Assembly (NCBI GenBank): GCA_017431105.1
Contig: JAFRLS010000003.1
Span: 62,001-126,000, forward strand
DNA: 64,000 nt
Source of the DNA: Candidatus Saccharimonadota bacterium
GTDB taxonomy: Bacteria > Patescibacteriota > Saccharimonadia > Saccharimonadales > Saccharimonadaceae
Direction: 5' to 3'
A program made the translations under genes and the position numbers. The notes beneath the pieces were generated by a model. The model was not told where the DNA came from, did not search any database, and worked only from the letters and a program-made list of their open reading frames with translations. Positions 19,659-23,634 of this stretch are shown here, piece after piece. Positions within the stretch are counted from its first letter, which is position 1; every line of letters starts with the position of its first letter.

Positions 19659-21758
19659 TTATTTTGAGTTACGCGCTTCGATAATTTCCGCTGCTACGTT
19701 TGGTGGTACTTCTTCATAGGCAAAGAGCTCCATTGAAGAGGCCGCACGTCCCTGTGTCATGCCACGAAGGTCGCCAGTATAACCAAAGAGGTTTGCTAGT
19801 GGGCAGAATGCCTTGATTAGCTTGGCGCCACCATTCAAGTCTTCCATTTCGTCAATGCGACCACGGCGCGAGTTGATATCGCCGATTACGTCACCCATAA
19901 ATTCTTCTGGGGTGGTGATTTCAAGTTTCATCACAGGCTCGAGAAGTACTGGACGAGCCTTCTTAATGCCTTCGCGAGTTGCAAGTGAACCAGCGAGCTT
20001 GAAAGCGAGTTCAGACGAGTCAACATCATGGTAGCTACCATCATAGAGTGTAGCCTTAATATCGACTACCGGGTAACCAGCAATCACGCCACCATTCAAA
20101 GTTTCTTCAACGCCCTGCTGGACCGGCTTACGATATTCTTGTGGAACTACGCCACCCTTAATCATATCAATAAATTCGAAGCCCTTACCTGGTTCGTTTG
20201 GCTCAAACTTGATCCAAACGTCACCATATTGACCACGACCACCAGACTGCTTGATGTGTTTACCTTGTGCCTCGGCAGTACCACGAATCGTTTCGCGATA
20301 GGCCACTTGTGGGGCGCCAGTATTAGCCTCTACACCGTGTTCCCTCTTTAAACGATCGATAATGATTTCAAGATGAAGCTCACCCATACCAGAAATAATG
20401 GTTTGTCCGGTTTCTTCATCAGTGTGGACGCGGAAGGTTGGATCTTCTTCGGCCAACTTAGAGAGTCCGATACCCATTTTTTCCTGATCAGCTTTGGTTT
20501 TTGGTTCCACGGCAATCGATACTGGTGGATCCGGAAAATCAATCGACTCGAGTAAAATTGGATGTGCTGGACTACAAATCGTAGTGCCAGTCGTACAGTT
20601 CTTTAAGCCCACCACGGCAGCAATATCACCAGCTTTAATCTCAGAGATATCATTACGTTCATTGGCATACATACGAACCAATCGTCCAATACGCTCCTTG
20701 TCACCAGTCGTAGCATTCATTACGGTGTCGCCAGACTTCAGTGTACCAGCGTAAACGCGAATAAATATTAATTTGCCCACAAATGGATCGGTTGCAATCT
20801 TGAATGCAAGTGCAGTCAACGGCTCAGAATTGTCGGCTTTGCGTACGATTTGATCGCCAGTCTTTGGATCGGTACCAACGGTTTGACCTTGATCACGATC
20901 AAGCGGGCTTGGCAAATAATCGGTCATAAGATCGAGCACCTTCTCAACGATTACGCCACGACCATCGCCACCGGTTACAAGGAAGAAATCGCCTTCAAGT
21001 ACACGTTTGCGGAGAGCGGCTTTAAGTTCAATCTCTGTAATAGCGTCTTCGCCCTGATTGAAATACTTATCCATCAGAGCTTCATCGGCTTGCACGGCTT
21101 CTTCAATCAACATTGAACGAGCATTTTTGGCTTTTTCAAGCATGTCAGCCGGAATCTCGCCTACAGTGAGCTCATGATCAGCGTAATCCTTGTAGGTGTA
21201 AGCTTTCATGTCGACCAAATCTACTACACCACAAATATCTTTTTCAAAACCAATTGGTAAATGAATGGCTACTGCGTTCTTTGATAAACGCTTATGGATT
21301 GAATCAAGCGATTTATAAAAATCGCCACCAATTTGGTTAATTTTGTTCACGAAGCAAATACGCGGAATACCATATTTGGTAGCCTGGCGCCACACGGTTT
21401 CAGATTGAGCTTCGACGCCCATCTTGCCATCAAACACCACCACTGCGCCATCGAGCACGCGTAGCGAGCGCTCAACTTCAGCGGTAAAGTCGATATGGCC
21501 CGGAGTATCAATAATATTGATCTGATGGTTTTTCCAGTAAACAGTTACGGCCGCGGAAGTAATTGTAATGCCACGTTCCTTTTCTTGTTCCATCCAGTCA
21601 GTTTCAGCGCCGCCAGTGCCGCCCTTAACTAGATCAATTTTGTGTTTAAGCCCGGTACGATAAAGAATCGCCTCGGAAGTAGTAGTTTTACCAGCGTCAA
21701 TATGCGCGATAATACCAATATTGCGCAACTTCGCTAGATCCTTAATTTCAGTAGCCAT
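19659..21758 (-). CDS. fusA: Elongation factor G
   Basis: 699 residues, full length. Ribosomal translocase GTPase. Seen: AHIDAGKTTTSEAIL (G1), RGITITSAA (G2), DTPGHIDF (G3), NKINQIG (G4; Ile for the usual Met), domain II with FVGKLIFIRVYAGTLKSGD, and domains III-V ending GYTGDLRGMTQGRA. The start at 21758 (MATEIKDLAKLRN) is chosen because AAGGAG lies 5 nt upstream; longer frames only add leader sequence. The 110 nt between this start and the RNA-gene terminator at about 21870 hold the leader. Confidence 0.97.
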   Translation of the reverse strand: MATEIKDLAKLRNIGIIAHIDAGKTTTSEAILYRTGLKHKIDLVKGGTGGAETDWMEQEKERGITITSAAVTVYWKNHQINIIDTPGHIDFTAEVERSLRVLDGAVVVFDGKMGVEAQSETVWRQATKYGIPRICFVNKINQIGGDFYKSLDSIHKRLSKNAVAIHLPIGFEKDICGVVDLVDMKAYTYKDYADHELTVGEIPADMLEKAKNARSMLIEEAVQADEALMDKYFNQGEDAITEIELKAALRKRVLEGDFFLVTGGDGRGVIVEKVLDLMTDYLPSPLDRDQGQTVGTDPKTGDQIVRKADNSEPLTALAFKIATDPFVGKLIFIRVYAGTLKSGDTVMNATTGDKERIGRLVRMYANERNDISEIKAGDIAAVVGLKNCTTGTTICSPAHPILLESIDFPDPPVSIAVEPKTKADQEKMGIGLSKLAEEDPTFRVHTDEETGQTIISGMGELHLEIIIDRLKREHGVEANTGAPQVAYRETIRGTAEAQGKHIKQSGGRGQYGDVWIKFEPNEPGKGFEFIDMIKGGVVPQEYRKPVQQGVEETLNGGVIAGYPVVDIKATLYDGSYHDVDSSELAFKLAGSLATREGIKKARPVLLEPVMKLEITTPEEFMGDVIGDINSRRGRIDEMEDLNGGAKLIKAFCPLANLFGYTGDLRGMTQGRAASSMELFAYEEVPPNVAAEIIEARNSK

Positions 21759-21865
21759 ATACTCCTTTATATTATTATTTTTCTGCTGTAAGAGTTTCAC
21801 ACTCAAAAACAAGAGCAGCTTTTTTATAGTCTATCATATTTTTTCGAAAAAGAAAAGCGGTTTTG

Positions 21866-21897
21866 AAAAAGAAAACCCCGGTGCTATTGCACCGGGG
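21866..21897 (-). terminator. Rho-independent terminator of the 21876-22186 RNA gene
   Basis: CCCCGGTGC / GCACCGGGG (9 bp, loop of 4) at 21876-21897 followed on the minus strand by TTTTCTTTTT. Confidence 0.9.
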
Positions 21898-22186
21898 TAA
21901 GGTCAGGCCCGAACCATAATTGTTCGGTATCGCGTGCGTCTTCCTGGACGCAATGGATCGGGCCCTTGAGGGTGTGGGGTGTCGTCTGTTGATTTGGACT
22001 GGACATTTATATTGTTTAGGAGGATCAGGAACATCGAAGGTTCGCACTGGGATTCTTGCTCTTTGCCTTGGTAATAAGATTTCGCTTGTTTTTTACGACA
22101 CCCCACGTTAACGTACTTTAGCGGCTAACTCACCACCACGAAAGCCACTAAATCAACACGGAAAAACAACGCTGCTTATCCGTGGC
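21876..22186 (-). ncRNA. Putative structured RNA gene of about 310 nt, family not identified
   Basis: A 460-nt stretch between gatB and fusA without a believable protein gene. On the minus strand it has a promoter (22190-22218), a terminator, and dense complementarity in between: AAGCCAC with GTGGCTT near the 5' end; TTTAGTGGCT with AGCCGCTAAA; a 12-bp perfect long-range stem GTGGGGTGTCGT / ACGACACCCCAC enclosing about 110 nt; and 3' hairpins GCGTC/GACGC and CCGAAC/GTTCGG, the latter in competition with GGCCCGA/TCGGGCC. I looked for the hallmarks of RNase P RNA, tmRNA, SRP RNA and 6S RNA and could not match them. It could be a very divergent member of one of these, or new. Confidence 0.65.
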
Positions 22187-22189
22187 TTA

Positions 22190-22218
22190 ATATTATCATC
22201 TTTTGAATATATAGTCAA
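22190..22218 (-). promoter_or_regulatory. Promoter of the structured RNA gene
   Basis: Minus strand TTGACT (22213-22218), 17-nt spacer, TAATAT (22190-22195). The predicted start is at about 22183-22187. Confidence 0.65.
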
Positions 22219-22221
22219 GAT

Positions 22222-23634
22222 TTATGATAATTTTTTTCTCAAAATCTCTTGCACGGCAGACGGATTGGCTTTGCCACGAGACTCTTTCATTACTTGTCCC
22301 ACCAAGAATCCAATGACCTTTTCTTCCCCGTTTCTAAAATCAGCTTGCGCCTTCTGCGTTTCTGGTTTGGCTAGTACGATGTTTACGATAGCTTCGAGCG
22401 CGCCCAAATCATTTTCTTGAATTAGCCCTAATTCTTTAGCGATAGCTTTAGTTTCATGATTCCTCATCTGCGGATCAAATAATCTCAAGAAAACTTCTTT
22501 AGTAGCAGTTGAGCTTAGCTCCTTTTTAGCGTTCATTTCGGCTAAATCATTCAAGTGCGTGGCGTCTGGTAAATCGTTTAGATACTCAGCCGATTTCTCT
22601 TCAGCCAAAAGTACAGAAGCAAACAAATTAGCAATCATATTAACGTATTTCTTGTCGATTCCATCTAAAGCATGCATTAATTCTGGATAATCTAGCAAAA
22701 TTTCCAAAATATCACCAGCAAGTTGCTTGCTAAACTTAGCACGATAATCAACCGGCATTAATGGCAATTTATCAGATTCTGTTTTAATAAACTCATCAGA
22801 TAATTCAATCGGCGGAAGATCAGGTTCTGGCATATAACGATAATCTTTAGCTTCTTCTTTGGATCTTTGTCCGGTAGTCTTGCTAGTGCTATCATTCCAA
22901 CCACGAGTTTCCTGAATTACCTTTTCGCCAGCTTCTAATAATTTTGTCTGGCGTGCAATTTCATATTCTACTGCGCGCTCCACACTTCTGAACGAATTTA
23001 GGTTTTTCACTTCTGCCCGCGTGCCAAGCTTTTCGGAACCGTCTGGCGCAATTGAGACATTTACATCGAAACGCATATTACCATTGTATAAATCACCATA
23101 AGTAACTTCGGCATATCGCATCAAGCGCCACAATTCTTTACAATAATCATGTGCATCGTGAGCGCTATGAATATCTGGCATCGAGACAATTTCGATTAAT
23201 GGCGTATCAACGCGGTTTAAATCAACTAACGAGTAGTTATCAAAATGTGTAAGCTTACCAGCATCACCCTCCAAATGCGCATGCTCAATTCGAATTCTTG
23301 TACCAGACGGTAATTCTACGTAACCTTCACCAATAATCGGATGATAAAACTGAGTAATCTGATAGCCTTTTGGCGAATCTGGATAAAAATAATGTTTACG
23401 GTCAAAACGTGAATAAGGATTAATCTTGCAGTTCATTGCACGACCAGCACGGATTGCAAATTTAATCGCTTCACCATTTAATCTTGGTAACATGCCAGGG
23501 AGAGCATAGTCTACTGGAGAAACACAGGAATTTGGTTCTTTGCCACGCGCATCATTATCCACTTCTGAAAATAATTTAGTTTTTGTTGAAAGTTGCACAT
23601 GGCATTCAATACCGATAGTGGGAATATATTTCAT
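22222..23634 (-). CDS. gatB: Aspartyl/glutamyl-tRNA(Asn/Gln) amidotransferase subunit B
   Basis: 470 residues. With GatA and GatC it converts misacylated Glu-tRNA(Gln) and Asp-tRNA(Asn) to the correct amides. Seen: GIECHVQLSTKTKLFSE, PGMLPRLN, SRFDRKHYFYPDSPKGYQITQ, EHAHLEGDAGKLTHF, LVDLNRVDTPLIEIVSMPD, RFDVNVSIAPDGSEKLGTRAEVKNLNSFR and a C-terminal YqeY-like tail that holds tRNA. Overlaps the preceding HEPN-like gene by one base (TAATG). Last gene of the gatC-gatA-x-gatB operon. Confidence 0.97.
   Translation of the reverse strand: MKYIPTIGIECHVQLSTKTKLFSEVDNDARGKEPNSCVSPVDYALPGMLPRLNGEAIKFAIRAGRAMNCKINPYSRFDRKHYFYPDSPKGYQITQFYHPIIGEGYVELPSGTRIRIEHAHLEGDAGKLTHFDNYSLVDLNRVDTPLIEIVSMPDIHSAHDAHDYCKELWRLMRYAEVTYGDLYNGNMRFDVNVSIAPDGSEKLGTRAEVKNLNSFRSVERAVEYEIARQTKLLEAGEKVIQETRGWNDSTSKTTGQRSKEEAKDYRYMPEPDLPPIELSDEFIKTESDKLPLMPVDYRAKFSKQLAGDILEILLDYPELMHALDGIDKKYVNMIANLFASVLLAEEKSAEYLNDLPDATHLNDLAEMNAKKELSSTATKEVFLRLFDPQMRNHETKAIAKELGLIQENDLGALEAIVNIVLAKPETQKAQADFRNGEEKVIGFLVGQVMKESRGKANPSAVQEILRKKLS

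Follow-up and report, generated by a model that had tools for sequence, protein, structure and literature searches.

Between the genes gatB and fusA of a gut Saccharibacterium, both of them ordinary flanking genes, lies what looks like a genuine transcription unit; the folded RNA that it would yield is non-coding and about 315 to 320 nt long. Our leading but tentative reading is that this unit is a shortened, peptide-less ortholog of the gatB-fusA unit of related Saccharibacteria, and that its product would be a non-coding folded RNA of ~315 nt. The unit spans positions 22218-21866 on the minus strand of the window, by which we mean the whole stretch of 64,000 nucleotides that was analysed, and runs in the direction from gatB to fusA. 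Listed in that direction, its features and their surroundings are as follows.

22222 to 23634, minus strand: gatB, the upstream gene, for which homologues were found.
22190 to 22218, minus strand: promoter TTGACT-17-TAATAT, with the -35 element beginning 4 nt past the gatB stop codon.
22157 to 22184, minus strand: P1, the hairpin CACGGA...TCCGTG of the predicted fold, sitting at the expected transcript start.
22148 to 22156, minus strand: linker TTGATTTAG between P1 and P2, by eye like the TTGGYTTA of the relatives' slots L108, L110, and L123.
22117 to 22152, minus strand: P2, the hairpin TTTAGTGGC...GCCGCTAAA of the predicted fold.
22095 to 22106, minus strand: 5' arm GTGGGGTGTCGT of the 12-bp long-range stem.
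22070 to 22104, minus strand: element like the relatives' pre-RBS hairpin (GGGG-TCGT...CGAAATCTTA-CC), seen in local alignments with L023, L014, and L025 and overlapping the 5' arm of the 12-bp stem.
22055 to 22069, minus strand: site at which relatives have AAGAAGGGAGG and the candidate has AAGGCAAAGAGCAAG, without a usable ribosome-binding site.
22015 to 22026, minus strand: putative anti-Shine-Dalgarno-like word GATCCTCCTAAA, within the loop of the 12-bp stem.
21974 to 21985, minus strand: 3' arm ACGACACCCCAC of the 12-bp long-range stem.
21906 to 21965, minus strand: P4 stem region GGGCCCGATCC...GGTTCGGGCC of the predicted fold.
21866 to 21898, minus strand: intrinsic terminator ACCCCGGTGC-AATA-GCACCGGGGT, a 10-bp hairpin followed by a T run.
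21826 to 21838, minus strand: presumed -10 element TATGATAGACTAT of a separate fusA promoter, picked by eye and not returned by the promoter scan.
19659 to 21758, minus strand: fusA, the downstream gene, whose listed ORF starts further upstream, at 21812.

The initial annotation had placed a unit with its own promoter and terminator at 21876-22218. Both elements were confirmed on the minus strand between gatB and fusA, and the upstream end held, but the unit runs slightly further downstream, to 21866, and the terminator hairpin, given as 9 bp, comprises 10. The promoter TTGACT-17-TAATAT is present as described (22218-22190), is sigma-70-like and matches 9/12 consensus positions; it is weak on its own, because six sites scoring like it occur in 901 nt, compared to 1.9 in shuffled sequences. 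The perfect 12-bp long-range stem was likewise recovered exactly (22106-22095 with 21985-21974), and only 2 of 1,000 dinucleotide shuffles of the unit, taken without its terminator, contained a long-range helix equalling or exceeding it. The overall fold beats chance only modestly: the good folding z-score (-3.96 over 321 nt, terminator included) is owed mainly to the terminator, without which z is -2.25 and 5 of 200 shuffles fold equally well. Furthermore, no ORF with a ribosome-binding site was found within the unit, where a 67-aa GTG frame is present without one.

The size of the unit and its stand-alone promoter and terminator would suit a highly divergent RNase P RNA or tmRNA, as had been proposed, or a divergent 6S RNA, but this reading is close to refuted. 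An Rfam search found nothing above the gathering threshold at the unit, the sole such match in the whole window being a tRNA-Leu, and with permissive filters the top match reached 24.2 bits, where the cut-off is 49.5. Within the window, there was no covariance-model match to RNase P class A (RF00010) and neither a covariance-model nor an ARAGORN match nor a tag ORF for tmRNA (RF00023). 6S RNA (RF00013) had no match in the window, nor in the assembly at E<=10, and bacterial SRP RNA had none in the Rfam scans of the window. Full-length matches to both lie elsewhere in the assembly, on contigs C41 and C9, at 235 and 224 bits for RNase P class A and at 95 and 91 bits, above the cut-off, for tmRNA, so that the candidate is not needed for either role; moreover, it is missing from all genus relatives, unlike a housekeeping RNA. 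The exclusion of RNase P RNA and tmRNA is strong but not absolute, since the window lies on contig C36 and these copies sit on other contigs of a MAG with 7.69% contamination. What agrees with the sequence in the earlier interpretation is a structured RNA gene with its own promoter and terminator and without an assigned family, and not its RNase P or tmRNA identity. With bacterial intergenic small RNAs, the candidate shares the stand-alone promoter, the folded non-coding transcript, and the intrinsic terminator, but it differs from them in lacking an Rfam family. As a separate observation, contigs C9 and C41 of a single assembly (G000) carry RNase P RNA and tmRNA in two copies each, which suggests that this assembly probably mixes two organisms.

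The position of the unit was compared across the genus in 175 stretches downstream of gatB (122 distinct; 85 reaching fusA), which cover 98 of the 173 other genus genomes as well as named genome records, with a few places at contig ends or with low-ranking matches left out. A promoter matching at least 10/12 consensus positions and starting in the range of -15 to +20 relative to the gatB stop was present in 47 of the 122 distinct slots, a few of which, in slots of ~115 nt or shorter, are fusA's own promoter. Such a promoter occurred in 20 of 2,440 shuffled sequences (0.8%), and at offsets of 100, 200, and 300 nt in 0/105, 0/101, and 2/98 slots, respectively. With its 9/12 matches, the candidate promoter occupies the same position but falls outside the 47. 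What follows the promoter varies by species and includes structured peptide-less RNAs, longer protein genes, a promoter with an immediate terminator, and ~600-nt units with an ORF of 52-68 aa behind a strong ribosome-binding site; 76 of the 122 slots have no similar partner at all. The gatB-fusA interval is a hypervariable slot, of which the candidate is a member by position. Among 27 loci from further genera of the same order (L158-L184), none had fusA in the fetched flank, and the slot is therefore useful inside the genus only. Rfam searches of 16 relatives' loci gave no match at the gathering threshold, and a permissive search of slot unit L115 gave no convincing one. The literature listings searched yielded nothing on the gatB-fusA locus, which is not proof of its being unpublished.

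Five slots (L040, L088, L122, L124, and L150) carry a 12/12 promoter after the gatB stop, then, within ~10 nt, an intrinsic terminator hairpin and, just downstream, fusA; the predicted transcript has ~30 nt. This arrangement, together with the direction of the unit toward fusA in every slot examined, would be in line with a cis-acting fusA attenuator, in which transcripts started at the promoter after gatB either stop at the terminator or continue into fusA. We consider such an attenuator very doubtful, however, as fusA seems, by eye, to own a promoter past the terminator and as L037, L073, L078, and L079 carry another promoter between the unit and fusA.

Covarying RNA structure was observed in some of the relatives' slot RNAs. 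Eight relatives of one type and the shorter L037 share a long-range stem of GTGTTATTTAAAACGAT with ATCGTTTTARTAACAC, and variants thereof, that encloses 360-411 nt (136 in L037); among its outer six pairs, three are changed on both sides across the nine sequences, the arms having been picked by eye. In L108, L110, and L123, in which no peptide ORF was recognised, the pairing of P1 and P2 is kept, and 7 of the 26 predicted pairs show changes on both sides, which indicates that versions without a peptide can be conserved at the RNA level. The 14-17-bp long-range stems of L107, L144, and L249 beat all 60 shuffles each and end 39-40 nt before the end of the unit, and in many other units (e.g., L013, L015, L073, L109, L136, and L154) the long-range helix is no better than in shuffles. 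Separately, the 3' parts of L013, L015, and L154 contain repeated CTCCTTTCT/ACCTCC words, which we take to resemble the anti-Shine-Dalgarno end of 16S rRNA.

Two kinds of slot unit invite direct comparison with the candidate. The RNAs of L108, L110, and L123 (~290 nt) share with it the promoter at the gatB stop, P1, a TTGRYTTA-like linker, P2, and the terminator, but there is no significant sequence match between them, and the 12-bp stem is not common to both. R3, a covariance model of their P1-linker-P2 region, scored the candidate in register at 4.7 bits (E 0.78 in 801 bases, ranked second there), a result that is not significant and leaves the likeness of the linker without significance under this model. 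The peptide-bearing units L013, L014, L015, L023, L025, L153, L154, and L156, which are not in Rfam, nor are the L108, L110, and L123 RNAs, have in common with the candidate the slot, the strand, P1, the pre-RBS hairpin, and the terminator before fusA, and in L014, L023, and L025 the first 140 nt are similar. Six measured units of this kind have 587-707 nt and a peptide of 56-67 aa with a clear ribosome-binding site, whereas the candidate has about 320 nt and neither ribosome-binding site nor peptide ORF; the L013/L014/L015 type also has one extra gene between gatB and the unit.

Alignment of the first 140 nt of the candidate gave z-scores of 7.3 with L023, 6.1 with L014, and 5.4 with L025 (0/300 shuffles each), but three further members of that group, L013, L015, and L154, aligned poorly (z 2.0, 1.6, and 0.1), and local alignment of the middle and 3' parts of the candidate showed no similarity to relatives. 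With lax gap costs, the best score against 121 other slots was reached by 6 of 60 shuffles and is not significant. A leader model built from L013, L014, L015, and L153, with the candidate left out (R2), independently recovered L023 and L025 (E 6e-8 and 2e-6). It matched the candidate over the full length of the model (22190-22056), on the right strand and in register, at a marginal E of 0.0096 in 801 bases, and missed it in 447 kb of its own genome and in the genus search. R1, a model of the GTGTTDTTTAAA slot unit, gave 3.5 bits, which is not significant, so that the covariance models overall comprise one marginal match (R2) and two failures (R1 and R3). Outside the slot, an R2 match in G045 (L273) was examined and judged to be chance, and further matches in G211, G125, and G119 had E of about 0.02. 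The failures of R1 and R3, along with the radically different slot contents between species, would be in line with a species-specific small RNA of independent, recent origin that is driven by the slot's promoter. Such an origin is unlikely in our view, given the leader likeness to L014, L023, and L025 and the R2 match in register.

At the DNA level, none of the 173 other genus genomes (174 including the candidate's own) contained a match at E<=0.001; the best match (E 0.00118) was short and covered query positions 318-349, which correspond to the terminator region. Searches of 98 other relatives and of phage and plasmid records gave no match. Used as a pattern in viral contigs, the long-range stem had one match, which was unrelated, coding-like by eye, and judged to be chance. 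Since the genus search gave no match, compared to 57/60 genomes for the dprA-topA transcript described below, the candidate does not amount to a conserved RNA family as the term is normally used; it is a species-specific sequence at a conserved position. The proposal of a new RNA family agrees with the lack of an Rfam match but is weak as regards a family. Regarding the conservation of the stems in relatives, on which the initial annotation had made its proposal depend, the 12-bp stem is largely not conserved, with no counterpart by sequence, while the promoter position is kept and the leader, less surely, as well.

The main and serious rival explanation is that the unit is a decayed, functionless remnant of a peptide-bearing unit, in which promoter and terminator survive and the rest drifts. 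The lack of sequence relatives in the genus, the absent ribosome-binding site and ORF, the modest z-score without the terminator, and the many slots without a similar partner are all consistent with decay. We nevertheless regard it as somewhat unlikely, as a perfect 12-bp stem is not readily obtained by chance and both promoter and terminator are intact.

The reading as a shortened, peptide-less ortholog, tentative as it is, is favored because of the promoter position shared with relatives, the leader alignments, the R2 match, and the lack of an ORF with a ribosome-binding site, and also because L108, L110, and L123 show that peptide-less RNAs can be conserved. The promoter, the non-random 12-bp stem, the terminator, and the absence of a usable ORF were observed directly. 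The ortholog reading is weakened by the poor alignments of L013, L015, and L154, the outcome of the lax scan, the R2 misses in the genome and genus searches, the non-significant R1 and R3 scores, and the lack of similarity in the middle and 3' parts. According to this ortholog reading, an RNA would be made from the unit, its first 140 nt would descend from the leader of a peptide-bearing unit, and the ribosome-binding site and ORF would then have been lost; judged from sequence, descent from the L014/L023 type is probable but unproven. Any function of what is left would be that of an RNA, and its most plausible form is a stable transcript in which the 12-bp stem may hold open a mostly unpaired loop offered to a partner RNA or protein. 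The exposed loop would include the anti-Shine-Dalgarno-like GATCCTCCTAAA (22026-22015).

The orphan transcript used for comparison above lies outside the window (G000:C36:46670-47000, minus strand; L278 and L286), between genes named dprA and topA from a reading of the flanking translations. It has ~312 nt, a 12/12 promoter, a terminator, a folding z-score of -5.49, and no Rfam match. Besides its presence in 57 of 60 genus genomes, short matches occur in 6 genomes of other genera (99 order genomes searched), and in an alignment of 19 sequences, 19 of 60 predicted pairs are changed on both sides in at least 1 sequence. It has a strong claim to being a structured RNA family not yet described and is a far stronger case than the gatB-fusA candidate.

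The peptides encoded in slots were examined in 16 cases (L013, L014, L015, L018, L023, L024, L025, L028, L038, L073, L078, L079, L087, L099, L115, and L154). They have 15-68 aa; their bodies vary, and the C-terminus resembles YxKxxPx-stop, with lysine at -5 in 14/16 and a penultimate proline in 16/16, the latter count being biased because the ORF family was partly found by a pattern requiring the C-terminal motif. For six pairs, dN/dS was 0.20, 1.08, 0.40, 0.21, 0.18, and 0.51, and it was undefined for a seventh. The slot peptides are suggestive of a regulatory or arrest peptide.

A broader and rather unlikely proposal is that this promoter-anchored slot directly upstream of fusA, the elongation factor G gene, is dedicated to a fast-evolving structured RNA that is particular to each species of the genus and in many cases comes with a short peptide ending in Y-x-K-x-x-P-x-stop; the candidate would then be an RNA-only version, and the slot may sense or tune translation. 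Taken alone, the candidate is one species-specific small RNA of low interest, and the slot as a whole is of moderate interest. Together with its relatives, the unit marks a fixed genomic position at which the promoter persists and most species have a replaced or remodelled transcript, and the slot thus forms a natural series for studying the gain and loss of bacterial RNAs and short peptides in reduced genomes.
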